Shown: in pieces, positions 1 through 46,442 of the stretch
Position numbering within the stretch: the first letter of the stretch is position 1
Layout: each line of letters starts with the position of its first letter
Assembly: GCA_963575745.1 (NCBI GenBank)
Contig: CAUYUJ010004525.1
Span: 380,291-444,290 of the forward strand
Source: Prorocentrum cordatum
Taxonomy: Eukaryota; Sar; Dinophyceae; Prorocentrales; Prorocentraceae
DNA: 64,000 nt
Direction of reading: 5' to 3'
Notes under the pieces: generated by a model
What the model saw: the letters and a program-made list of their open reading frames with translations, nothing else
Databases searched by the model: none
Told to the model about the DNA's origin: nothing
Made by a program: the position numbers and the translations under genes

Positions 1-1465
1 GAGTAGCAAGGTCCCAAGACTCCTGCGCCGCCTGGCCCGCCAACTCATCAGCAGACTCGTTGCCCGCCGCGAGAAGAACCTGGTCCTCCGACAAGGAGGG
101 GTCAGTGGGATCCAGGTGGGAGGGGGTCCACAAAACAGAAATCCCATTCTCGCGGCCCTCAAGGGCCAGGCGGATACGAAACCAAAGGTCCGAATTCACA
201 CCACTGCAACGACGGAAACGGCGGCGCCTCCACCCCTCTAACAGGGGCTGGTTGTCCGTAACATACTCGAAGTTCCCTGGGACATTGCGGAGAGCCAGCT
301 CGAAGGCCAACAGCTCTGCCCTGGGGGCCGTCTGGCGGCGGCCTGAGGTGGTGGAAGCCCAGCCCTTAAGTCGGCACCACATGGTGCCATCCCAGGCCAC
401 CAGCGCAGCGGCCGCGCCGACTCGTCGGCGGCGCGGGTCAGAGCTAAAGGCGCCTCCTGAGCCATCTCCAAAAACCCGCAGGAGCCCTGCAGGGGACCTG
501 GCCGCCTCGACAGAGGATCCCTCGACTAACGACGGCGACGACCCCACCTCCCGAGCCACGTCCGCCCCCCCGTCCTTGAACACAGGGCATGTTAAAGACC
601 TAGGAGGCAGGCCGCGGAGCCACAAGGCAGGATTCGCCTCGTGTCCCACTCTGGCCTGGTGGCATAAACCGTCAGAGAGCTCAAAGGCCTCATGATTGCA
701 ATTCTTGGGGAATTCCCACACTCTGTGGAAAAGCGTCTCCGGGGCCGAGCCGCATCGGGGGCAGGTAGAGGCAACAACATACCCCGCCTCAAGTTGGCGG
801 ACGTGGGTCCACTGGCCTCCTGACACGACAGTCGTGAGAAGGCCTACCTGCTCATACTGATCCCTACGCTCGAGACGCCTAAGCTCCTGGCGCAAAGGCT
901 GGAGATCAGCCCCCTCGGCCAAGTCATCGCCGTGAGGGTGGGCCGCTGCCTGGGCCCACAAGAGCGCAGTTAAATCGTCCCTGAAATCATCAACCAACTC
1001 AACGACATCAAAGTCGCCTTCAAGGCGCTCAATGTCGTCCCGATCAGGAAAATGCCACACTTCATATTGGTCCCCCACGGGTCTGCGCCATTTAACAGGG
1101 GACACAGGCTTCCAACCAACGTCGAGTAACGTGGCGACGACGGCCCCGATCGGACCCCGCACCCGACGCCAGCGTTTCGAGGCCAACAGGTCCAGGCGGC
1201 CCCGAATGTGGTGCCACGCGCGAGAGATGCGGCCATGCAACTCAGGGAACCGATTCCACATGTCAAACCACGTGAACAACACCTGAGCCCTCAAGGCGAT
1301 GAAGGGCTCTCGCTCAGCATAAAACAAAGAGAGCACCGTGGTAAGACAACGGCCTGGGCTTTTACTGACAACAGATTGGGAAGCCTGGCGCCTCAAGGCT
1401 AGGATCGATGAGGGGGAGAGGCCCATGGCCTGATGGCCATATACAGCCTGAGGAAGGGCCCCCCT
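1..1465 (-). pseudogene. LINE 1 RNase H and pre-RNase H region, runs off the window edge
   Basis: One minus-strand frame stays open from about 1465 to base 1. It holds a thumb/connector region, a zinc-knuckle-like C-x2-C (STCPRCGSAPETLFHR) at about 760, and then an RNase H domain. All four catalytic acidic positions are visible: D in FGDGSGG (~510), E in PRAELLAFELAL (~320), D in VTDNQPLLEGW (~255) and D in GNESADELA (~40). The same order is seen in LINE copy 2. Together with the adjoining RT it is inactivated upstream by a frameshift near 1465 and a stop at 1651-1653, so it is not translated as part of a full polyprotein unless these are assembly errors. Its own catalytic residues are unbroken. 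Confidence 0.8.
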
Positions 1466-3990
1466 GTAACCAAAGCCCCATGGGACACGTTGGCCGCCTT
1501 GGCGTGGCGACGCAGGCGTCGAATGCGCTGCGCGCGTGGACGGGCCTTCCTCTGACGGTCCAAAAGCTTAACGACCACCCGACGAGCCCCACCTCCCGTG
1601 TCGCAACCCAGGTCAACAGCTTGGACCGCCAGGGAAGCTGGGATGCCTACCTATCTCAGGCTGGCCACAATGCGCTTACCAACCTTAGTGGAGGAAGCAA
1701 TGACCTTGGTCTTGGGCGAAGCGGGCAGTTGATGCAAGGCAAACGATCGGGCGAAAGACTGGCCAATGGTGGAGAGCTGCGCAATGACATTCTCCTCGGT
1801 GCCCCAAGCCCGCGCCACGGTGTCATCAACAAAGGTCCAGAGGCCCGCGGGGGAGACCAGGGCACGGGCCCCCGAGGCCGCGTGAGCGGCCGACAAAATC
1901 GGACCCAGGAAAACCTTATCGAGTTTGACACCGTGAGCAGACCCTGCTACTATAGAACGGGTGGGAAAAGTTAAATCCGACGCGATGTTCCTGGACCGCA
2001 GGATCCTGGGAGCAAGGAACATCTGCACCTCTAAAAGGGTGACAATCGAGGGGAAACCCTGCTCGACCGAAACACGCATTAGTAACAGCATGCTGACGTG
2101 ATCATAAAAATTTTCGAGGTCGAGGAGGAGGGAGGCCGAGGTGAAACCCAGCTGGAAGGAGGACTCGTCTAAGATGGCCCTCTGCAGGGCCGCCCTGAGA
2201 GCCGAGGACCCTCGGATCGCCGTGTCCCAAAACTCACCGAGGTCCTGGGACCACTGGTCCGCGATCGGGGGCCCGAGCTCTGGACCAGACTCCCATGCAG
2301 GTCGGCAGAACACCGATAGCCCTGTCACCTCCTGAAGGTTTCGGGACGATCGCTCCTGCAAAAGCTGGACAAGCCACGAGCCTACCCTCTCGGCTTCGCG
2401 CAGCAAGTCGCCGAACTGCTGCTGCCCCTCGGTCGGCAGCCTCTGAATGCCGACGGGGCTGAGCACATCCACGCCTCGAGCCTTGTTGGGAGCCATCCTG
2501 GAGACAACTCTCATGATGGAATCGTCCTCCAGCTCGCTGATGGGGCGGCGACGTGCGTGCTGGAGCAACTCCTGCATGCCCCTGCACAGGTCCTCCCGCG
2601 ACGCCTGTGGATCCGTCCGAATGGCCCGCCACGCCTGCAGCTTGTGCTCCATGATATTGTCAGGGCCCCCCGTGGCCTCCTCGGGACCATCGCCAGGAAC
2701 CTCGAGCGCAGCAGGCTGTGGAGGGTCACGGACGTGACGATGGACCACTGATGGTCTGGTGCGCCAGCAGTCCCTGGCCCACTTGACATAGGCGTCGCCC
2801 GAGGACACTAAGGCCCTACCCCAGGAGCGCGAGCACCAGGCCTCCGTGACCTCACCAAACCGCTCAAGGGTCTCGACGTCCAGCGGTGGCCCAAAGATGA
2901 GGCAGGCCACATCAAACCACTCCTGTACCTCCTGGTGGGTGGCCCTGGGCCCGAATAGCACGGCTCTCGGCTGGGCCCCGGCCTGGCCAATCAGGCTGGA
3001 GATGGAAGTGATCAAAGCCTCCTGCTGCACGGGGTCCCGATCGTGTCGGCGTAGGGAGGTATATCGTGTGGCCAGCGACGACATCGTCCGCCACAGTTCC
3101 ATGGTAGGGTTACGCATATGAGTACGCCCTGGGGACGGCTGTAATTTGCGTCGAGTAAGGCCATCCAATTTGCCGCGTCCAATGTACTGGGCCTGCTGGT
3201 CGGATGGGATGCCTTCAGTACGTAATATGGCCAGATCCAAGGGAGATACCCAGCGTTGATACGACTGGGAAATGGACTGTACGTCATCTGCCGAGCCCGT
3301 AGGGAAAGCCCGAGCCTTCGAGTCCGAGCAGATACTTACCCACGGCTGAGCCTCAATGGCAGCGACGGCCCAGTCGTCCGACTCAACGCGAAAGGGTACC
3401 TGCGCAGCTGCGTCATCAGGCTCCTCATCCTCAGGGGGGGTGACTTCGTCGAAGGCACCCTGCAGGTCGGCGCTGAGTCGTTCTCGTCTGCGAACACGAG
3501 CTTCCTCACGGCGCCTCGAGCGCTTACTGTCAGGGTATGATGCCCTCTTGGGCCTGGGCCTTTGTGGGGGCTCACTGGGAGAATCCAAAACCTGATGCCA
3601 CCAATCAGCGTGCCCTGAAAGAATCTCAATGTCCAGGGCAACATGTGTCTTCCATGGAACGAGTGTGAATGGCTTGACTCTGAGCTGGTCTGCAAAACCC
3701 CTCTTGACCACCAAGTAGTCGATCAAAGAACCACTGCCAAGAGCACAAGTCGCGCTGCATCCACTCGGGGTGACAATCTCCCCGTCCCACACTTCAAGCA
3801 GGCCGCTCTTGGTCAGCTCGTCTGGTTCCAAATTCCAGTCCGCACAAATGATCCACGGGTCAGCCAAAGAGCCAACAAACCTGCTGATAGCACGAACACG
3901 GGGAGTATTGATGCCACCTGTTTTGGGCCCTGGGGATAGGTAGGCCGACAACAGCACAGCGTTGCCACGCTTGAGATGCAGGGTGCTGGG
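1466..3990 (-). pseudogene. LINE 1 C-terminal endonuclease plus reverse transcriptase
   Basis: The minus-strand frame begins near 3990 in the second half of the endonuclease (CADWNLEP at ~3840, LIDYLVVKRG at ~3715, and the catalytic-His region KTHVALDIEI at ~3640) and continues through RT. RT motif A is LLLDLENFYDH (~2115), motif B is RSIVAGSAHGVKL (~1945), motif C is TFVDDTVARAWG (~1830, FVDD in place of the usual FADD/YADD) and motif D is SPKTKVIAS (~1715). Between about 2385 and 2275 another frame gives the expected KPSGGDRAIG, so two compensating frameshifts are present. A TAG at 1651-1653 ends the frame, but the same frame resumes beyond it to about 1465. Family: non-LTR RT with APE-type endonuclease. 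Confidence 0.85.
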
Positions 3991-4334
3991 GCAAAACCCT
4001 CAATGGCCCTCGGCTTGGCAGAACGGAGACGCTCCCAGGAAGTGGCAGCAATGTGCCTTTTGTGCACAACCCACTCACCACCCCTGGAGCCCGAACATGA
4101 GGATGCTGATGCCAATGCAGGGGTGCCAACCATCTTCCAACCGTCCTGGAGTAGCTCCGCGCGGGCTGCCTCCATGCCACTGACCTTGACATGGGTCTCG
4201 GCGAAGGCAACAGTCCCAAACATGGTGCCAGCTCCTCGCATGAACGACTGAGCCTTGGGCCCCCACTCACTGATATTGGCAAACAACAAACGAGCTGAAT
4301 GAGGATTGGCACCGCCCTCCTCTGTTGCCTCCAT
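3990..4334 (-). pseudogene. LINE 1 N-terminal endonuclease segment
   Basis: The frame carries LLFANISEWGPKAQSF, then the endonuclease Glu motif AETHVKV, then GEWVVHKRHI. These match LFFANVEKWGPQAHKY, CETHLLPD and GEMIIARRHL of LINE copy 2. The reading frame leaves the homologous path near 3985-3992, where the +1/-1 frame beginning TLHLKRGNAVLLSAYL continues the domain. This is a clear endonuclease/exonuclease/phosphatase-type fragment broken by one frameshift. The region just upstream (4335-4560) is coding-like in a different frame and links ORF1 to ORF2. Confidence 0.8.
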
Positions 4335-6397
4335 GCACGGGCCTCCAGTGCAATACTAGTAGCAATACTCTGTGTGCAAGAAACCGAGGCCGCTGGAGGA
4401 GCCGAAGTCGGAGTGCTCCTCGAGGTTGATGCCGTCGCCGAAAACGAAGCACACGTAGAAGTCCTCGGAGCCAAGGGTGGCGAGGCGGGGGGCCCCGCAA
4501 CGCCTGAACTGGAATGTGTGTAATCTAACGCATACGTCTGAGACGGCGCGGAGAGGTACGGTCTCCCACAAAACGGCAAAACCACAGTTGGAGCCTCAGG
4601 CGGGGTCTCCCGTCGCTGCGGGGCCCTGGTATCATGCGCGCGGCGTGCATCGATATGACTCAGGGCGTTGCGAGCCAACTCCTCCTGCCAATCGTCGTAG
4701 TCGATGTCTCGGAGGCCGTTGAGATAGTCACGGTACGCCTGCCGCTGGCGACGGCGAGCATGCCTCGCTCTCTCGCAAATCTGCCTGGCCATGTCCCGCT
4801 GAGCAACCGCAAGGTTTCCATGCCCTGCTGTGTCAGCAACCTCCTGGACGAGAGGCTGTAGTGCCGGATCTGCCAGGAAACTGGCGACGTATGGGATGCA
4901 CATCCTCTTCCAGTCGGCGAAATCCGAATCTTCATCAACAGTGCTGGGGTCCGGTACCCAAGCACCAGTAAGCGACCTCAGCTGCCTCTCAAGTAGCAGA
5001 CGATTATGAAGGGCCGCGCGCCTGGCAGGGTTCTGATCCTTGCAATGGATCACCCTGTCCTCGAACTCAGAGTCGTCATCGCTCTGAGAGTAGCAGAACT
5101 TGTAGCGGCCGAAAACCTCCAGGTCGGGGAGGAAGGCGAACTCGTCATCCTTCGAGAGGAAGATGTCCCCGTAGAACGGGAAAGGCGAGCCACCATATGT
5201 GACCGCAGCCGTACAATCGCAGGTGCTAAACACCTTGCGTGTCACGCTTCTTGTCGTCAATAGCTGCACTGGCCTTGGCTCTGGCAGCGGCTCGGAGGGC
5301 CTCGGCGCTGCTGCGCTCACCTCCACCACGGGACGATCCAGCCGCACTGCCGCCAGCAGAAGAGGCCCCAGTAGCAGTAGCCGAAGGGTCCACAGGGCCC
5401 GCGGCGGGGCCGCCATCCTGGCCGCGGCGCCTCTTGGCATGGAGCCTGGCGTGGAGAGCTTGGGCCTCCTCCCGCAGCTTGAGGATCTGCTGAGCGGCGG
5501 GACCCAAGGCCTCCTGGACCTTGGCCTGCACGCTGGTGGCGAGCTCACCCTTGCTTCGAGCCCACTCGGAGCGCTCTGTCTCGTCGATCTCGAGGCCCTC
5601 CAGGTCGAAGAGGGGGCCGTCGACGAAGCGCAGCGAGCCCTCGTCGACGAGCGTCGAAAGGTTGATGGCCGTAGCAGCGGATGCCGTCTCCGACCGCGGC
5701 GTCGATGGCGTCGGGAGCTGCTTGGCGCAAGCCTCCTCCCAGTCGTGCTGGGCCTGGTGTGCCGCCTCTGCCGCCGCGTCCTCAGCAGCCTTGGCGTCGG
5801 CCAGCCAGGCCTCTCCCTCGACGACACGCCGCGCGCAGGTCTCAAGCCACGCCTGCGCCCGCCTGCACGCAATCCCCTTCGCAGAGACCTCCTCCTCCAA
5901 AAGGGGCGGGTGGCGAGGGGCCTCGGCGGCAGGCTGCTCCGTGGCGGCCAGCTTGGCGGACAGGACCTCAAGCTCGTCGCAGTCGCCAAGCTTCTCGCGG
6001 AGCAGCGCAAGGGGGCCTCGCGCGGCTCCTCGGGCGGCGGTCCGCCACCGTAGGGGTACCAGCCTGGTCCATGCCAAACCCACGGCCGGCGCTCCTTGGG
6101 TGCACCCTTGGCGGCCCTCGGCGGAACAGGAGGGCCCTTGGAATGGCCCCCCCCAGGCGGCGCCGCACCCGAGGCGGTGTCGAACGGGTTCGACGCGAGC
6201 GTGGGCGGGCCGAACGACCACTGGCCAGTGGGCATCTTGTCGGGCGAGGGGTACGGAACCATCGGCAAGCAGCACTGGTAGCACCAGTGGTTGGACTTGA
6301 AGTTCCACCGATAGCGGCAAGCCGAGCAGCTGACGAAGGTGCCCGACTTGTCTTTGCCCTTGCCGCACGCGCCATTGTTGCCCACGTTGCGGCCCAT
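4335..6397 (-). pseudogene. LINE 1 ORF1-like protein with N-terminal zinc ribbon, frameshifted
   Basis: The ATG at 6395-6397 opens a protein starting MGRNVGNNGACGKGKDKSG, followed by a C-x2-C...C-x2-C ribbon (CSACRYRW...WCYQCC), probably for nucleic-acid binding. Then comes a Pro/Gly-rich linker (PPGGGHSKGPPVPPRA). Near 6045 the coding frame moves to one that is Ala/Glu-rich and probably coiled coil (EKLGDCDELEVLSAKLAATE) and ends in KKRDTQGV-stop at 5226. Coding character resumes in the first frame from 5230 (SPFPFYGDIFLSKDDEFAF, then an Arg-rich helical stretch) to about 4570, and perhaps in a third frame to 4356. Position before the endonuclease and the zinc ribbon fit a LINE ORF1. The exact borders and the number of real frameshifts are uncertain. 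Confidence 0.6.
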
Positions 6398-6513
6398 GCG
6401 CTGGCGGCCCTGCTGACTGTAGCAGGGCTCCGCACCTGGGGAGAACCAAGCGGAGAATGTGAAAGCAGCCGCGGACTAGCGGTATCCGTTTGGTCCCCTG
6501 GGGAACAAAGCAC

Positions 6514-6534
6514 CTTGAGCCAAACTGGCTACGG
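6514..6534 (-). other. spliced-leader (SL) relic, 20/21 match to the dinoflagellate SL
   Basis: On the minus strand the 21 bases read CCGTAGCCAG then TTTGGCTCAAG. The canonical dinoflagellate SL has T instead of G at the tenth position and is otherwise identical. It lies 117 bases upstream of the ORF1 ATG, exactly where a trans-spliced leader would sit on the LINE mRNA, and is preceded directly by a TCC microsatellite. Known background: dinoflagellate mRNAs receive this leader by trans-splicing, and relics mark genes that re-entered the genome through cDNA. An SL RNA gene is less likely, because no Sm-site-bearing intron or tandem SL array is visible. Confidence 0.8.
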
Positions 6535-6536
6535 AA

Positions 6537-6947
6537 GGAGGAGGAGGAGGAGGAGGAGAAGGAGGGAGAGGAGGGGAGGAGGGCATCGGCGCTTCGACGC
6601 GGCCTCGTTCGCGTCACCGAGTCACCGTGGAGGAGGAGGAGGAGGATGAGGAAACGGAAAAGCAGGAGGAAGGAGGAGGATAATGCTGCTGCTGATAAAA
6701 GTGCTGCTGATGACGACGATGATGCTGCTGCTGCTGATGATCATGCTGCTGCTGATGATGATATTCATGCTGATGCTGATCATGATGATGCTGCTGCTGC
6801 TGCTGATGATGCTGATCATGGGGGTGATGCTGCTGCTGCTGCTGATGATGATACTTATGCTGCTGCTGATGATGAGCAGGAGGAGGAACAGGAGGAGGAG
6901 GAGGAGGAGGAGGAGACGGAGTAGAAGCAGGAGGAGGATGAGGAGGA

Positions 6948-8520: not shown

Positions 8521-9479
8521 AATAAAGTAAGAGGTGTTGGCGGAGGATGAGGATGAGGATGAGGATGACGAGGAGGAGGAGGAGGAGCAGGAGGAGGAGC
8601 AGGAGGAGGAGGAGGAGGACGAGGACGAGAACGAGGAGGTCTAGTTGGAGGGGAAGAGGATGAGAGGGAGGAGGAGAAGGAGGAGGCTCATGCATGTTCT
8701 CCGTTTCCCTAGGCTCTTCGGGACAAGGAGCAGTTGTTCATGCACAGCATGCTGCAGAAACAGGAGGGCCCTTTTGCCAGCATCGCACTTCGATGCCCTG
8801 CTTGCCGTAACAGCGCGTGGGACACAACTCAACCTATCGGGGCACACCGCCCAAGCCCCCAGGGCACAGGTCATAGACCGCAGTGCCTCCCGTGCTTTGC
8901 GTGCGTCGTGGTGCTCTCTCTCCCTCTCTCTCTGCCACAGACGCCATCTATTCGAGAAGAGCCGGCCCTGGGCAACCCCTATCCAGTATCTCCTGGCAGC
9001 GTGCCAATTCGTTGAAGTAGGGCAACCGCTCTAAAGCGTCCGTTCCTGTGGACCATGCTGCATCGCCCTCAGGATTCCACCAGATTCGTGATGCATGAGC
9101 TCTTGAGCGATGGGGTGTCAGGCTTCTGAGCGGGAGGCTCAAGGCGCTGCGGACTTTACGGCAAACGTGTCAATTTCAGCGATTGCGAAGGCCTTGCGGC
9201 CGGTGCCGCCGACCCTGAAGGGGGACGACGACGAAGACAGAGGAGAGTGGATGGAGGAGGTTGAGGGGAAGGGGAAAAGGAGGGAGGAGGGAAGATAATT
9301 AGGAGGAGGAAGAGGGATGAGGAGCTGGATGGCGGAGGAGTCGCCATGGATTCGCCATCTACAGGATGGGGATGCTGTGTCGCCACCAAGATAAAGGGCA
9401 GCGAGGCAACCCTGTTACTGTGTATACACCGTCGGGCCGCCGCCGACGACGACGCTGACGTGGGTCAGAATCCTCAGGG
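8521..9479. other. GAG/GAC microsatellite then unassigned sequence
   Basis: 8540-8690 is a GATGAG/GAG/GAC microsatellite. 8691-9290 is non-repetitive with no recognisable gene. 9230-9335 is purine-rich. No RNA gene or motif was recognised. Confidence 0.5.
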
Positions 9480-11699: not shown

Positions 11700-12290
11700 G
11701 GGGCGCCTCTTGGGCCCGACTTGGGGTGCCTCTGGGCCCCTCCGAGGGCCCTGGGAAGGGTGCAAGAGGGCCCCTAGAGGGCTCCCAGAGGCCCCCAAGG
11801 GGGCTCCAAGAGGCCCCGAAGAGGGCCCAGGAGTACATTATAAAACAAGCTGTTTTTATAAGCTGGCCCGGTGCCCTCTTGGGCCCGTCTTGGAGCGCCT
11901 TTGAGCCCCCCCGAACGCCCTGGGAAGAGTCCAAGAGGGCCCCTACAGGGCTCCCAGAGGCCCCCAAGAGGGCTCCAAGAGGCCCCCGAAAGGGTCCAGG
12001 AGTACGTTATAAAACAGGCTGTTTTTTATAAGCTGTCCTGGGGCCCTCTTGGGCCCGTCTTGGGGCGCCTTTGGGCCCCTCCGAACGCCCTGGGAAGGGT
12101 CCAAGAGGGCCCCTACAGGGCTGCAGGAGGCCCCCAAGAAGGCTCCAATAGGCCCCCAAGAAGGCCCCGCAGTACCTTACAAAACAAGCTGTTTTTATAA
12201 GCTGTCCTGGGGCCCTCTTAGGCCCGTCTTGGGGCGCCTCTGGGCCTCTCGGAAGGATATGGGAAGGGTCCAAGAGGGCCCCTAACGGGC
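11700..12290 (+). repeat. 170-bp satellite, array 1 (about 3.4 units)
   Basis: Each unit holds a GC-rich part (CTCTTGGGCCCGTCTTGG, GGGAAGGGTCCAAGAGGGCC) and one AT-rich imperfect palindrome TTATAAAACAAGCTG then TTTTTATAAGCT at about 11837, 12006 and 12177. The spacing is about 169-171 bases. A second array of the same unit lies at 16030-16850 in the same orientation. Confidence 0.85.
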
Positions 12291-16029: not shown

Positions 16030-16850
16030 GGCGACGGACAACTGGTGCGTTTGGACCCCGGGAGGGATCTGGGGACCCGTCTTTGGGCCCCTCCGAGGTC
16101 TCTGGGAAGGGTCCAAGAGGGCCCCTAGGGGGCTCCCAGAGGCCCCCAAGGGGGCTCCAAGAGGCCCCCAAGAGGGCTCAGGAGTACGTTATAAAACAAG
16201 CTGTTTTTATAAGCTGTCCTGGGGCCCTCTTGGGCCCGTCTTGGGGCGCCTCTGGGCCCCTCCGAGGGCCCTGGGGAGGGTCCAAGAGGGCCCCTAGAGA
16301 GCTCCCAGAGGCCCCCAGAAGGTGGCTCCAAGAGGACCCGAAGAGGGCCCAGGAGCACGTTATAAAACAAGCTGTTTTTATAAGCTGTCCTGGGGCTCAC
16401 TTGGGCCCGTGTTGGGGCGCCTGTGGGCCCCTCCGAGGGCCCTGGGAAGGATCCAGTAGGGCCCCTAGAGGGCTCCCAGAGGCCCCCAGGGGGGCTCCAA
16501 CAGGCCCCGAAGAGGGCCCAGGAGTACGTTATAAAGCAAGATGTTTTTATAAGCTGGCCTGGTGCCCTGTTGGGCCCGTCTTGGGGCGCCTTTGAGCCCC
16601 CCCCGAACCTTCTGGGAAGGGTCCAAGAGGGCCCCTAGAGGGCTCCCAGAGGCCCCCAAGGGAGCTCCGAGAAACCCCCAAGAGGGCCCAGGAATACGTT
16701 ATAAATCAATCTGTTTTTATAAGCTGCCCTGGTGCCCTCTTGGGCCTGTCTTGGGGCGCCTTTGGGCCCCTCCGAACGCCCTGGGCAGGCTCCGAACGTC
16801 TTGGGCCTGTCTTGGGGCCGCCTTTGGGCCCGTCGGAAGGCTCTGGGAGC
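16030..16850 (+). repeat. 170-bp satellite, array 2 (about 4.5 units)
   Basis: Same unit as 11700-12290. The AT-rich palindrome starts near 16189, 16359, 16528 and 16698 (spacing about 170). The two arrays are separated by the satellite at 12.3-14 kb and the GAC field. Confidence 0.85.
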
Positions 16851-40418: not shown

Positions 40419-40755
40419 TTGCCCTCCTCCTCCTCCTCCTCCTCCTCCTCCTCCTCCTCCTCTTGCTCCTCCTCCTCCACCTCACCTCCACCCCACCTCC
40501 TCCACCTCCTCCCCTCTCCTCCTCCTCCTCCTCCTCCTCCTCCTCCTCCTCTCCTCCTCCTCCTCCTCCTCCTCCACCTCCACCTCCACCTCCACCTCCT
40601 CCTCTTCCCCCTCCTCCTCCTCTCCCCTCCTCCTCCTCCTCCTCCTCCTCCTCCTCCTCCTCCTCCTCCTCCTCCTCCTCCTCCTCCTCCTCCTCCTCCC
40701 TCCTCCTCCTCCTCCTCCTCCTCCTCTTCCTCCTCCTCCTCCTCCTCCTCCCTCT
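40419..40755 (+). repeat. CTC microsatellite at the 5' border of LINE copy 2
   Basis: CTC with CAC variants over about 340 bases. It is in frame with the LINE endonuclease, producing an artefactual poly-Leu/Pro N-terminus. Confidence 0.9.
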
Positions 40756-40794
40756 GCGGGGGCTGCTGCGGCTCCTGCTGGCGCTCCTGCTGCT

Positions 40795-41761
40795 GGGACG
40801 AGTGCAGGCGCAGGCAAGAGTGGAGCAGCTGCCAGCCAGGATAGACCGTCGCACCTTTGACGATCTACGTCCTGACGCGAGGCCAGCGTCAGGCACGGCT
40901 GGCGATCGCCAGCTCTTCTTTGCGAATGTGGAGAAGTGGGGCCCACAGGCCCACAAGTACGTGAACGAGTATCAGGAGCGACACCCACGGGTAAGTGTGA
41001 TGGGCATCTGCGAGACCCACCTCTTGCCCGACAAGCAGAAGAAGGTCACGGTCGACCTCGATCGGGACGGCTGGAAGACCACGGCCACGGCAGCGCGGCC
41101 GTCTGGGCTGAGTGAGACGGGGTGCTGTGGTGGAGAGATGATAATAGCGAGGCGGCATCTGGAGACGACCTCGTTTGATCATGTGCGAGTGGCAGCACAG
41201 CAGCGAGGCAGAGACGATCCCTTCCGCGGGTTCGTGGCGACCACCATCCACGCGAAGGCGGGCAATGTGGTCTACGTGACGGCGTACATGGCGCCCCAGT
41301 GGGGGAAGGGGTCCCCGAACCCCCAGAAGCTGGCGAGCCTGGCGGCCTTCCTGAAGGCCGTGGACGACCTGTGGATCGTGGCGGCGGACTGGAACCTGGA
41401 CCCAGAGCAGCTGCTGAAGAGCGAGTTCCCGCAGAAGGTCGGCGGGGTGGTGAAGACGCCGCAGGGGGCGAAGGTCACGTGCACCAAAGGGGAGCAGGGG
41501 TCTCTGCTGGACTACTGCTTGGTGCGCAAGGACTTTGCGGACCAGGTGATGGTAGAGGCGGAGCTGGAGGTGCCTTGGAAGGTGCACTGCGCGCTGCTCA
41601 TCACACTCAAGGGCTCCTACCAGGAATGGTGGGTGAGGGCGCTCGTGGTGCCCAGGGCGCTGCCGCGGACGCAGAGGCCGAGGAAGAGCGCGGATCCCAA
41701 CAGCAAGACGAGCAAGATGAAGCAGAAGAAGCTGCAGGAGAGGAAGTCGAGACTCCCCCCC
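40795..41761 (+). pseudogene. LINE 2 AP-type endonuclease
   Basis: Coding starts near RVQAQARVEQLPARIDRR and continues LFFANVEKWGPQAHKY. Motifs: CETHLLPD (Glu), DDLWIVAADWNLDPEQLL (Asp/Asn), GSLLDYCLVRKDF (Asp) and WKVHCALLITL (His region). After it comes a basic linker KTSKMKQKKLQERKSRLP. The frame is lost at the seven-C run 41755-41761; continuing in the next frame gives PPEEQEAFMKLYEE. The start is set by homology because the upstream CTC repeat is open. Confidence 0.85.
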
Positions 41762-41959
41762 GGAGGAGCAGGAGGCCTTCATGAAGCTGTACGAGGAGGA
41801 TGAGGTCTGCCACGAGCCCAAGGCGCCCTTCCAGGTGCCGCTGGAGTGCTGGAGGCAGGCGGAGGAGCAGCTGGTGCAGACAGGATTTCCAGGTCACCAG
41901 CAAGCCCGACCAGCCCATCCATTCCACCCGCTAAGCGACGGCCAGAACAGACGAGACGG

Positions 41960-41995
41960 CAACGTGCTCCGGCAGAGCGTTGCCGGAGCACGTTG
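41960..41995. repeat. 36-bp palindrome P2, copy 1, inside the RT ORF
   Basis: CAACGTGCTCCGG, short CAGAGCGTTG loop region, CCGGAGCACGTTG. Perfect 13-base arms. In-frame with the RT ORF. Confidence 0.9.
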
Positions 41996-41997
41996 GG

Positions 41998-42033
41998 CAA
42001 CGTGCTCCGGCAGGGCGTTTCCGGAGCACGTTG
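41998..42033. repeat. 36-bp palindrome P2, copy 2, inside the RT ORF
   Basis: Same arms as copy 1, two bases downstream (GG spacer), with CAGGGCGTTT in the loop. The two copies plus spacer add a multiple of three bases. Confidence 0.9.
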
Positions 42034-43453
42034 GGCGAGGGCCCGTTGTGGGCACGTACGCGGGCCCGGTGCAGCAGCTGGACGACCACGTCGCCTACCA
42101 GGGCCGCGAGGAGCAGGAGAAGGACCTCTCGCATAGGTACGGCAACTGGGTGAGCAAGCTGGAGCTCGCACTGCTGGCCGTCCACGAGGTGGAGGAGTCG
42201 GAGAAGGCGCGCTACCTGGGGCGCGGGAGGGGCTTCGACCTGAAGTGGGTGAAAGCGAAGGTCACGCCAGGCAGGGCACACATGAAGTGCCACAAGAGTG
42301 ACGCCATGTGCTATGCGCTCACGCTGATGCAGAGGTACCAGACGCTCGCGCGTGGCAGGCGCGATGAGGCTCAGAGAGGCCGGGTGAGCTGCAAGCTTAA
42401 GAGGATCGCCAAGGAGACGCTGGACCGGGGCATGGCTGACTTCTTCGGCAGCGCGCGCTTCATAGTCTGGCAGAAGATGATGGTCAAGGTCGAGACCCTC
42501 TCGGCGGCGCACCGACAGAAGTTGCTCGAGCTGACGGGCACGCTGGCGGCGGCAGGGCAAGCACGCGCGATGGGGGAAGCACGAAGGGCCTACAACAAGT
42601 GGGTGAAGGAGATGTGGAGCGACAAGATGGGGGTGCTGCACAAGCACGTGAAAGACGAGCCGACCATCATCAACGATATCTGCGCGGGCACTTCCACCAC
42701 GGCGGACCCTGCGGCGATCATGAATGACCGGGCGTCCAAATGGAGAGGGTTGTGGCAAGACCCGAAGGTGAGATTGGAGGACATCCAGGGGCAGCTGCAA
42801 AGGACCCTGGAGGTAGCGAAGGAGGAGGACTACCCTCCAGTGGAGCAGGAAGAGTTCGACAGGGCGCTGAACTCCATAAAGGGCAGGAAGGCGATGGGCG
42901 TGGACGTGCTGAGCTCGACGGAGGTGCAGAGGCTTCCGCACGAGGCGCGCGAGGAGCTGATGCAGCTGATGAAAGATACCGAGGCCCAGGGCGTCTGGCC
43001 TCGCCAGTGCATGGCGGTGGTGGCGGCATCGGTTCCGCAGCCTGCTGGGGGCGACAGGGCGCTGGGCATGATTGCCCTGATGCCCAAGATATGGAGCAAA
43101 GCTCGAGGCAGTATCGTGGACAACTGGACGGAGCAGCTCGGGGCTTCCTGGGACGGCGCCCTGCGCGGGTGCTCTGCGCTCAGGGCTGCGCTGTACCGCG
43201 CCCTGCTCGACGAGGTGGGCAGGGAGATGCAGCTGGCGTCGGCCACTCTCCTCCTCGACCTCCAGACCTTCTACGACACGATCAGCCTGGCGCTGCTCAT
43301 GGAGCTGGCGGTGCAGGTGAAGTACCCTGCTATCGTCGTGGCCATGGAGGTGGAGCTCTTCTTGGGCCCTCGCATCCTGAAGGACCAGCGCCACGGCATC
43401 AGCGAGCTGGTCTGGCCGACGCGCTCGGTGGTGGCGGGGTCGGCGAGGGGGGG

Positions 43454-46065
43454 TATCCCTGGCCAAGGTGTTCATCCACGGGGTGCTGGAAAAGGCCCAC
43501 CAGGTGGTCCCGCAGGCGTCCCTCTAGACATTCGTGGACGACACGACGGCCCGGTGCGAGGGATCTCGTCAGATGGTGAAGCAGGAGATGAAGCAGGTGG
43601 CGACCCAGTTCGTGGAGGGCTTCGTCGAGGAGCGAGGCCTGATCATCTCGAACAAGACCAAGCTGCTGGCGTCGGACACGCAGCTGGGCCAAGAGCTACA
43701 GGTGGAACTGGAGTCGCCTGCTCTGCCGCTGCAGTTGGCGCTGGACGCCACTGACCTGGGCGGCGACGCGGCAGCTGGGCGGAGGCGCTGCTGCAAGAAG
43801 CAGCGCAAGAGGCTGCTGGCGGCTGGCAGGCGCGCTAGCCGCATCACGAGAATGAGGAGGAGCGCGGCTCTCGCCAAGGAGGCGAAGGGGCTGTGGAGCA
43901 CGGGGGCTTCTCCACAGGCCACCTACGGCCACCAGCTCCAGGGCCTGGCGCCGTCGAGCGTCAGGAAGCTGAGGCAGCAGGCGGGCGCGGCAGTTGGAGG
44001 CAAAGCTGGCGGACGCTGCCTCACCACGGTCCCGGCGGCGGGGCTTGAGGAGGACCCAGCCATCAAGCTGCGCATCCAGTCGGTAGACTCGTGGCTGGAG
44101 CTCGGGGAGACGGCACCCGAGGTCCATGCGAGGATCCATAGAGTCTGGCCTGCCATCCGCGGCGCGCTCCTAAGCGCCGGTGCAGCCCGGCGCTGGCGGC
44201 GCGTGCGTGGACCTGTCGGCGCGCTCGTGGCAACGCTCATGGACGTGGGCTGGGATCCGCGCACTGCTGGCACGTGGAGCAGGCCAGAGGTGGACGGCAC
44301 GATCACGGAGTGGCACCTGGTGGAGTCGAGCTCGGAGGCCTTTGGGAGCTTCATCGATCGGCAGCCCATCCTGCACGACCTCCGCGAGGACATCATGCGC
44401 CAGCTGTGGAAGCAGGCGGCGGCCCACGAGGACGGCGGCAACTTGGGGAGCAGCGCGGACATGCTGCATGCGAGGCGCGAGCTCGACCGATATGCTCGAA
44501 GAGGCATGTGGGCGGAGTGGAGTCGCACGATGGCGGTGAGAAGTGGCGGGCAGTGGAGCCGCGCCAGGAAGCGAGGGTGCGGCTATGCCGTCAGCGCCAC
44601 CTGCCCGAGATGCGGGCTGGAGCCAGAGACGCTGACCCACAGGATCTGGAAGTGCACGGAGAACATCAGCGAGGGCAGTGAGTTCGCCAAGTCGGAGCAC
44701 CTGGTGGCGAGGGCGCTGGCCAGTGTAGAGAGTGAGCCCTCGGTCTGGCTGCGAGGCCTAGTGCCAAACCACCTCACCACCCCCAGGTTCGATGAAGAGC
44801 GATTGGCTCAGGAAACCTTGTTTTTTGGGGTAAGTGAGCTGGGTGACTATCGGAGGGACGGGGTTTTGACGCTGTTTGGGGACGGGTCGGGAGGGAAGCA
44901 CTCGGACGATCAGCGTCGCCGTAGGTGTGGAGCTGCTGTCGCTGCCCTGGCCTTGCGTGAAGATAGCTGGTGCCTGGGGGCGATGATAGCCGCGCCGCTC
45001 CCTGGCTGCCGACAGTCTGTGCCCCGATCGGAGACGCTGGCCCTGGCGATGACCCTTGAGCAGACTACGGGATCGGTGCACTTCCTGACGGACCATCAGG
45101 GTCTTTTAAAAGCCTGGCCCCGGAGAAGGCGCAAGGCCACCAGGGGGCCCAACGAGGATCTCTGGGCGAGCATTCGCGCGGCGGCCGAAGGCCGCGAGGT
45201 CTCTCTGGGATGGGTCCCCTCTCACGCTGAAGAGGAGGACGCGGGCCGTCTGGCCACAGACAGGGACCTCCTCCTGGCTGTGGGCAATGCCACGGCCGAC
45301 CATGGGGCGGGGGAGGCGGCGGAGCGGGCTTGGGAGGGATTCGTCATGCATGCTGCTCCCCACGCTGACTGTTGGGATTATGTTGCCGCTCTTGTCAGAC
45401 GTCGAGCGTCCAAGGCCTTACAACTTGCCCTGGACTGCGACACGACCCGGGCCGAGCGCGAAGATATCGCGCCTCGTGGGGCCCGCGAGAGCGGCGTGAA
45501 GATAACTCTCCGCGAAACGGGCCACCAGATGGCCCAGGACGGCGCTAAATGGAGATGCGAGGTGTGCAACCAGCGAGTGCATGCCTCGAGCCTGCTGGAG
45601 TTCTGCAGCACTGCGTGCGTACCTCCGCCAGCCCCGCCTGTCCCACCCCCTCCCGTCCTGAACAGGGCCCCCAGGGCTGTGGGCGAGTGTGTTTTGAGGG
45701 GCTTGGGCGGGAGGGAGCTGCACAGCACTCACAGACTTGGAGAGTGGCCCAAGTATTGCATGGTGTTCTGCCACGAATGCGGTAGGTATGCGACGGAAGA
45801 TTTCAGACATCTCGAGGCCAGATGCCTTGGGAGATCACGGAAAGGAGCCGAGAATTTAGCTCGCATCAGGCGAGACCAGTACCCACGCCGCGAGGGCCCT
45901 CCTAAATCGGTCCTCGAGGCGTTGCATGCGCGCGTTTGTGCTGAAGAGGTGGCCAAAGCGACTGTGGCGGGGGACCCTGGGGCCCGAGGACCTGCCCCAT
46001 CGGCTGTGGCTGCGTCGAGAGCTCAGGACGGTGCTCCCACGGTGATTCCTGGCGACTCCTCCTAG
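43454..46065 (+). pseudogene. LINE 2 RT motif C, RNase H and C-terminal zinc fingers
   Basis: After the G-run the frame GVSLAKVFIHGVLEKAHQVV continues to a TAG (43525-43527) placed two codons before the catalytic TFVDDTTA. From there it is open to the stop at 46063-46065. Motif D is SNKTKLLASDT. RNase H has all four acidic positions: FGDGSGG, RSETLALAM, LTDHQGLLKAW and GNATADHGAGEA. The zinc-binding candidates WRCEVCNQRVHAS and CHECGRYATEDFRHLEARCL follow in the C-terminus. A C-x2-C (ATCPRCGLEPETLTHR) precedes RNase H. Only the TAG and the two frameshifts separate this copy from an intact ORF2. Confidence 0.85.
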
Positions 46066-46186
46066 CCTGTGGCAAGGCCCCTCGACCCAGAGGACGAGGC
46101 AGCCGAGTGGCTTTTCGGCGGCGCGGACGAGGACGATCCGTGCCCGCCAGATTTGGCGTGAGATGCGCCTGAGGATTCCTTGCGTG

Positions 46187-46224
46187 CCAGCGTGCTCCGG
46201 CAGAGCGTTTCCGGAGCACGCTGG
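46187..46224. repeat. 38-bp palindrome P2, copy 3, in the LINE 2 3' UTR
   Basis: CCAGCGTGCTCCGG, loop CAGAGCGTTT, CCGGAGCACGCTGG. The third stem base pair is G-C here and A-T in copies 1 and 2, with both sides changed together. Confidence 0.9.
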
Positions 46225-46347
46225 ATGAATCTGATAACGGCTCTCTCGGCACCAGGGTCTTGGTGTGGGTTTCGACTTTCCCCTTGGTGCTGCGATGCCG
46301 AGCTGTGAGCTGTGCCGCGTGGACGGCCACACTGCGTAATCCTTACA

Positions 46348-46442
46348 GCGTAATCCTCCTCCTCCTCCTCCTCCTCCTCCTCCTCCTCCTCCACCACCTC
46401 CACCTCCTCCCTCCTCCTCCTCCTCCTCCTCCTCCTCCTCCT
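46348..46442 (+). repeat. TCC microsatellite at the 3' border of LINE copy 2
   Basis: TCC/CTC repeat directly after GCGTAATCC. Confidence 0.9.

Follow-up and report, generated by a model that had tools for sequence, protein, structure and literature searches.

Spliced leaders and retroelements in dinoflagellates and other hosts

The closest described counterparts of the elements reported here are dinoflagellate retrogenes that carry relics of the spliced leader (SL) and are attributed to mRNA recycling by Slamovits and Keeling (2008), as cited in three later papers (PMC6050394, PMC3229502, PMC12014239). As summarised in the available parts of these sources, such genes possess DNA-encoded SL remnants at their 5′ ends, including tandem relics truncated after nucleotide 7 at an AG, which were taken to reflect retroposition of trans-spliced RNA. 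The relics have been treated as a reliable retrogene tag in the accessible text of one of them (PMC6050394). In the available portions of this literature the retroposing enzyme is unsettled (PMC6050394, PMC12014239), LTR elements being favoured in one paper (PMC6050394), and Ty1/copia ESTs appear in another of the works on SL-relic retroposition (PMC3942190). The elements described below share the 5′ remnants and the relics cut at the AG. However, unlike the retrogenes, which in the same sources are host protein genes known from ESTs, transcriptomes and gene models, the tagged unit here is a LINE, whole families are tagged, and the targets are microsatellites.

The available text on Symbiodiniaceae describes their LINEs as left over from an ancient expansion (PMC8045281). 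SymbioLINE of Symbiodinium likewise has ORF1 and ORF2, with many copies carrying a DNA methyltransferase in ORF1, and the term spliced leader occurs 0 times in the accessible text of its description (PMC5890265). The word retrotransposon is absent from the available text of the Prorocentrum cordatum genome paper (PMC10666404). The Pr77-bearing LINEs of trypanosomatids also live in hosts that use spliced leaders, but represent the opposite solution: according to the accessible part of the source, a common 77-nt 5′ sequence activates transcription and yields unspliced transcripts (PMC8190864). No report of SL-headed LINEs was found in the available text of the open-licence PubMed Central literature.

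Comparison with better-known LINEs gives a mixed picture. The reverse transcriptase (RT) of one element, at locus L014, can be aligned to human L1 ORF2p (8sxt) and to R2 (9nl2), and an AP-like endonuclease precedes the RT as in L1, while the host spliced leader at the 5′ end, the lack of a visible poly(A) tail and the microsatellite targets are unlike both. Kibi, Koshi, Waldo and Dong are microsatellite-specific LINEs which, like the present elements, insert within one type of simple repeat in a fixed orientation; to our knowledge none of them has an SL at its 5′ end. SLACS and CZAR of trypanosomatids are LINEs inserted in SL RNA genes, unlike the present elements, whose flanks are mostly TCC or GGA repeats.

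A LINE with a spliced leader at its 5′ terminus

The window, that is, the whole 64-kb stretch of DNA analysed, is located at G000:C4525:380291-444290 and contains the following features:

1-6534, minus strand: LINE copy 1, which continues past the window start for about 660 nt to its 3′ end, where (TCC)n follows again
6536-6582, no strand assigned: microsatellite of the insertion site, reading (TCC)n on the minus strand and flanking the element on its 5′ side, with the identical repeat 3′ of the element
6535-6535, minus strand: T completing the 22-nt leader (D = A/G/T, position 1); a microsatellite origin is possible in copy 1, though the repeat cannot explain the T in GGA-family copies
6514-6534, minus strand: spliced-leader sequence (20/21) at the very 5′ end of LINE copy 1, by pattern match and family comparison
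6488-6513, minus strand: 26-nt spacer from the SL to the family motif, diverged, with a short hairpin possible; length kept in 14/20 motif-anchored copies
6468-6487, minus strand: family 5′-UTR motif GGATACCGCTAGTCCGCGGC, found at 4,126 genome places at up to two mismatches (control, 21)
3860-6397, minus strand: ORF1, 845 aa, with a Cys-rich N-terminal segment (by eye) and without a Pfam match
1654-3999, minus strand: ORF2 piece with reverse-transcriptase homology and an FVDD motif, by local profile and homology to copy 2, without a Pfam match of its own
2-1567, minus strand: C-terminal piece of ORF2 in a different frame, running past the window edge
40752-46354, plus strand: LINE copy 2, boundaries approximate; main matches to copy 1 at 32-43% amino acid identity

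The only match to the SL (CCGTAGCCATTTTGGCTCAAG, up to three mismatches allowed) in the window is that at 6514-6534 on the minus strand, which agrees at 20 of 21 positions and differs by a T to G change. Chance as the source of this match is ruled out by dinucleotide-preserving shuffles of the window, which gave SL matches in 0/100 cases. Since the genome holds about one SL with up to two mismatches per 122 kb, finding one in 64 kb is unsurprising, and the informative point is that it coincides precisely with the 5′ end of a LINE. The SL lies 117 nt upstream of the ORF1 ATG at 6397, is preceded by a T with which the leader reaches its full 22 nt, and in the minus-strand reading directly adjoins the (TCC)n repeat (an AGG array on the forward strand); match and coordinates thus confirm the arrangement described in the original prediction. 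The nearest relative of copy 1 that was found (L072) is 98.6% identical over 586 nt and has a perfect SL, so the mismatch of copy 1 looks private.

Copy 1 looks decayed, with ORF2 split across frames. A Pfam scan of its ORFs gave no match; its assignment to the LINEs rests on homology to copy 2 together with the local RT profile. Copy 2, a distant relative of copy 1, has (TCC)n on both sides, lacks an SL and is apparently 5′-truncated; it provides a natural contrast to the full-length SL-headed copies.

Two further tandem arrays in the window, about 4 kb apart (11700-12284 and 16081-16793), are built from a 169-nt repeat with many CCAAGAGGGCC-like units.

Spliced-leader sequences in the genome and what follows them

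The 4.13-Gb assembly contains 14,218 exact SLs (reversed pattern, 0) and 33,832 at up to two mismatches (reversed pattern, 9). The forward-strand counts include overlapping matches repeatedly; on the reverse strand, where to judge from the listed places each match seems to mark a single site, there are 7,017 exact SLs. A separate count on this strand gave 1,988 SL matches with (TCC)3 and 722 with (GGA)3 within 8 nt. For closer inspection, 20 exact sites were taken with about 10 kb of sequence and another 20 with 0.9 kb, nearly all on the first-listed contigs. Upstream of these 40 SLs were found (TCC)n in 19 cases, (GGA)n in nine and neither in 12; in the window, 2.2% of positions are preceded by (TCC)n and 1.6% by (GGA)n. 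Inspection by eye of the 12 SLs next to neither repeat placed four in simple repeats of other types (L019, L032, L043 and L047) and two in an apparent minisatellite (L020 and L039). As L019 encodes both an endonuclease and an RT, and L039 shows a link to L019, these loci suggest that there are LINE families with targets other than TCC and GGA.

Downstream of the SL, the local profile detected a sense RT within 8.5 kb in 14 of the 20 longer loci and an antisense RT in 0/20. Eight of the same loci had gone into the profile and match by construction, and it recovered six more among the other 12; the Pfam hits serve as the independent check. Pfam was run on a single ORF per locus in 18 SL-headed loci and identified RVT_1, Exo_endo_phos or RNase_H in 9/18, with scores above the Pfam cut-off in six (L014, L016, L017, L019, L025 and L027). 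RVT_1 itself was present in 8/18 loci, above the cut-off in all of these six except L027. Exo_endo_phos is located upstream of the RT in L014, L017 and L019, and below the cut-off in L018. The most complete reading is that of L014, where one frame of 1,869 aa starts inside the SL and stops 36 nt short of the return of (TCC)n. The local profile found no RT in 6/20 loci, one of which (L029) has an endonuclease match by tblastn. By their predicted domains, the SL-headed elements belong to the LINE-type (non-LTR) retrotransposons that combine an AP-type endonuclease with a reverse transcriptase.

Eight of the other 20 SL heads were linked by blastn to the same families or to copy 1, so that at least 23 of the 40 exact genomic SLs head LINEs, and surveys that use the SL as a tag may count transposons because of this. 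In 14/20 loci the body behind the SL is an RT-bearing one and not the host mRNA expected of a DinoSL retrogene. Four protein relatives were found, all in Prorocentrum cordatum and 28-38% identical; none from outside this species was present among the approximately 8,000 candidates scored per search.

Two further SL occurrences were recorded. At about position 8567 on the minus strand of L012, an SL-like sequence with five mismatches lies beside (TCC)n, antisense to the LINE of that locus. Among viral contigs, considered as a possible source of other dinoflagellate DNA, one AT-rich contig (L050, IMGVR_UViG_3300045993_001077) carries two exact SLs on the minus strand, at 2746-2766 and 2893-2913, 147 nt apart, one of them about 45 nt 5′ of an ATG; nothing LINE-like was seen by eye in the 1 kb of this contig that was examined.

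The 5′ ends of LINE families

Three LINE families were analysed from the LINE side, each chosen for an SL-bearing member, so families devoid of the SL could have been missed. For two of them, copies were located through the RT as close relatives of the SL-bearing members L014 and L018, a test that, given this choice of families, covers copies and not families. All 16 RT-anchored 5′ ends carry the SL, 15 exactly and one with a single mismatch. Among the 12 closest relatives of L014, whose ends were placed from RT coordinates only, the SL is present in 12/12 (11 exact); all lie in or beside TCC-rich sequence, ten of them by a fixed threshold and the other two just under it, and one (L094) has about nine extra bases between the SL and the TCC-rich sequence. 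The four relatives of L018 all have the exact SL, complete with the T that completes the leader, and all lie in (GGA)n. An accidental position of a host-gene retrogene relic beside a LINE could be imagined, since host retrocopies with SL relics do exist (L038, below) and one SL per approximately 122 kb is expected; however, with the SL at 16/16 ends of copies found by their RT, this explanation of the SL is scarcely conceivable.

The copy-1 family was sampled in two ways. Places 3-22 among the 4,126 listed for GGATACCGCTAGTCCGCGGC gave 20 motif-anchored ends, of which 18 have the SL directly upstream at up to three mismatches (ten exact, six with one mismatch, one with two and one with three), in 14 copies at a distance of 26 nt from the motif. 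In the remaining two, both beside TCC-rich sequence, a seven-mismatch remnant persists in register (L054) or CCGTAGCC alone is left (L069). The second search used 586 nt of the copy-1 5′ end, a query with a mild bias as it includes the SL. From 1,030 candidates 40 copies were scored, copy 1 among them; 36/40 alignments enter the SL, and in the four that stop at query position 46 the SL is present, with a spacer of different length. The 5′-DNA-anchored ends examined number 20, these four and copy 1 among them; with copy 1 left out, 18/19 have the SL at up to three mismatches and the last (L087) at five. The two samples of the family thus provide 39 ends other than that of copy 1, 36 with the SL at up to three mismatches and three with degenerate remnants.

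The original prediction had regarded it as contrary evidence if full-length copies continued upstream with conserved non-SL sequence, or if the match were missing from all other 5′ ends. In the LINE ends sampled, no conserved non-SL sequence upstream of the SL was seen by eye, and the SL, sometimes degenerate, is present at every end examined; it is the 5′ terminus of these copies.

Within the copy-1 family, pairwise comparison of copy 1 and 14 of the 20 motif-anchored relatives gives differences at 36% of positions in the 26-nt spacer and at 12% in the SL. Six copies with another spacer length or partial loss of the SL (L056, L062, L064, L067, L069 and L070) were omitted from this comparison, and L054 was retained, which raises the SL difference. 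By inspection the changes in the SL look mostly private, one being common to L053 and L061. In the region after the SL (6448-6513 of the window; L051-L070), the spacer appeared to form a short hairpin whose sequence varies, and behind it comes another hairpin motif, invariant here as a result of selection of the copies. The impression by eye of a covarying hairpin was dropped, as the RNAalifold covariation term was about zero and two-sided changes occurred in 3/16 pairs.

Microsatellite flanks and 3′ ends

The elements are flanked by microsatellites, and repeat type and orientation are largely constant within each family. In the copy-1 family the fixed threshold assigns TCC to 12/20 motif-anchored and 15/20 5′-DNA-anchored ends (copy 1 included) and GGA to none; the ends below the threshold are mostly TCC-rich, with the exception of L057, and L060 lies in (CA)n. 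The group of L012, L046 and L049 mixes its flanks (GGA, none and TCC, respectively). The 3′ flank is of the same repeat type as the 5′ flank in 15 of 18 elements, the set examined being copy 1 plus 17 of the 20 loci; L015 has TCC on the 3′ side only and for L019 no repeat was found, and in this survey L011 ran off its stretch and the boundary of L012 was uncertain. Where both flanks consist of the same microsatellite, target-site duplications cannot be seen. The unique 3′ end meets the target repeat directly with no visible poly(A), a tail made of the repeat being indistinguishable from the target. No Rfam family, and hence no HDV-like 5′ ribozyme or other known RNA, reached the gathering score in the window and six loci.

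These flanks bear on the possibility that the elements inserted beside or into SL RNA genes and that the SL is flanking target DNA. A full SL does adjoin each copy, as this origin would require, but the flanks are mostly TCC or GGA repeats at unlinked places, and the distance from the SL to the body is constant across contigs, which makes it highly improbable. An SL RNA gene, or an insertion into one, was rejected on the basis of the flanks.

Relics and a probable signature of trans-splicing

Stacked partial SL relics, which the original prediction proposed to look for, exist in thousands. The end of an SL joined to an old SL cut after CCGTAG is found at 4,110 places (up to one mismatch, tandem steps counted singly), as compared with 61 places where it is joined to a complete old SL start, and the places listed include ladders with 15-nt steps, each relic cut at the splice site. 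Such a disparity marks what would be splicing at the AG within the old SL. Directly after the SL, a relic is present at 12/40 exact sites against 6/1,960 shifted control windows; L011 is a marginal case, and L026 and L029 carry a near-complete old SL instead. Relics of 15 nt occur at the heads of LINEs (L017, L022 and L062), and in the copy-1 family the relic-bearing copies L062 and L017 coexist with the relic-free rest. Relic-free copies are the majority in the best-sampled families, and relics were found at 0/16 RT-anchored ends.

The 61 full-SL junctions are not uniform, as 35 of them share one A-to-G variant, which is also present in the inner SL of L026. To judge from this common variant, they are a group in which the inner SL is inherited and drifting under the outer SL. 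In L026, which was picked for its exact outer SL, the inner SL has four mismatches. L090 has two near-complete SLs in tandem, not the 15-nt relic.

The SL exon alone is present, ending at its splice boundary. At the other end, a T precedes CCGTAG in 7/9 exact GGA sites and in 4/4 GGA copies found by the RT; as the GGA repeat could not supply this T, the SL reaches its first nucleotide. Template switching, a behaviour known for L1 with U6 RNA, would likewise place the SL at 5′ ends, if the RT jumped from the LINE RNA onto free SL RNA. However, only the SL exon is found, the point at which the body begins is constant within each subfamily, no shared sequence that could be an SL-RNA intron lies between the two, and the relics are cut at an AG; an origin by such jumps is very improbable.

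Taken together, it is highly probable that the SL reached the LINEs by trans-splicing. The original prediction that the LINE RNA was trans-spliced and that the spliced RNA served as the template is supported by genomic evidence, namely the SL at the head of full-length copies in the three families analysed from the LINE side and in a broad set of RT-bearing loci.

Proposed mechanism of 5′ end renewal

The proposed cycle would begin with a LINE whose insertions lie mainly in microsatellites of the (TCC)n or (GGA)n type, and to whose RNA the host 22-nt SL would be joined by trans-splicing. The mature SL-headed RNA would be reverse transcribed to its first nucleotide and then inserted, so that full-length copies would start with the SL. 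When such a copy is transcribed again, the new leader could be joined at the AG inside the old SL (TCCGTAG/CC, the slash marking the junction), leaving a 15-nt relic and, on repetition, a ladder. Alternatively, and probably more commonly in the families examined, it could be joined at the terminal AG (CTCAAG/), whereby the 5′ end would be regenerated with no growth. We infer that trans-splicing would act on the RNA in every cycle and that relic-free copies would use the CTCAAG/ acceptor. On the whole, it is quite likely that LINE RNA is trans-spliced, that the SL-headed RNA is copied to the first nucleotide, and that the host thereby renews the 5′ end of the element. Trans-splicing would thus explain in a simple way why the 5′ end of a LINE stays complete.

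A different history would have the SL captured once by trans-splicing and inherited since, being kept because transcription starts exactly there, with the SL acting as an internal promoter or in cap function; most cycles would then need no trans-splicing. In its favour, each subfamily has a fixed SL-body junction, the majority of copies are relic-free, one group does carry an inner SL variant by inheritance, and the SL has been suggested to act as a promoter (PMC6050394, in its available text). Against it stand the splice-site-cut ladders, at 4,110 versus 61 places and some of them at LINE heads, the coexistence of relic and relic-free copies in the copy-1 family, and L026, whose inner SL has drifted under an exact outer SL, although this locus was chosen for the latter. 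Capture followed by inheritance therefore appears unlikely, though far from negligible. The mostly private changes in the SL, its low divergence next to that of the spacer and the perfect SL of L072 fit renewal at CTCAAG/ in each round, but an inherited SL under strong constraint could give much the same picture; between the two, renewal is moderately favoured.

Renewal by trans-splicing may be extended to the speculation that the elements have outsourced their 5′ end altogether. They would then have no promoter or terminal signal of their own and depend on read-through transcription in repeats; the SL in the DNA would function as an acceptor replaced in each round, the TCC repeat as a polypyrimidine tract, and the same machinery, by copying any SL-headed mRNA, would be the source of retrogenes in this lineage. 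This extension is tentative, and we would give it somewhat less than an even chance.

Retrocopies of host mRNAs

The SL-headed LINEs are a strong candidate for the source of the RT that recycles dinoflagellate mRNAs, and their insertion sites offer a testable signature. The one clear host retrocopy found, a WD40 gene (L038, G000:C3:699336-700236), has an exact SL with a degenerate relic, and the host-like retrocopies L033 and L009 (metallophosphoesterase-like, by eye) carry SL relics as well. All three lie outside the TCC and GGA microsatellites used by the LINEs, and L038 outside microsatellites of any kind. The original prediction had gone further than the trans-spliced template and made the LINE machinery the engine of genome-wide recycling of host mRNAs. 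The former part stands; for the latter, the clear host-like retrocopies among the 40 SL sites, all outside TCC and GGA, are too few to decide.

The locus L009 is adjacent to the element described first. At about position 2762 on its minus strand (about -2700 in window coordinates), an SL with two mismatches lies just 5′ of the metallophosphoesterase-like open frame, recognised by eye; it is a candidate host retrogene about 2 kb past copy 1 and does not lie in a microsatellite.
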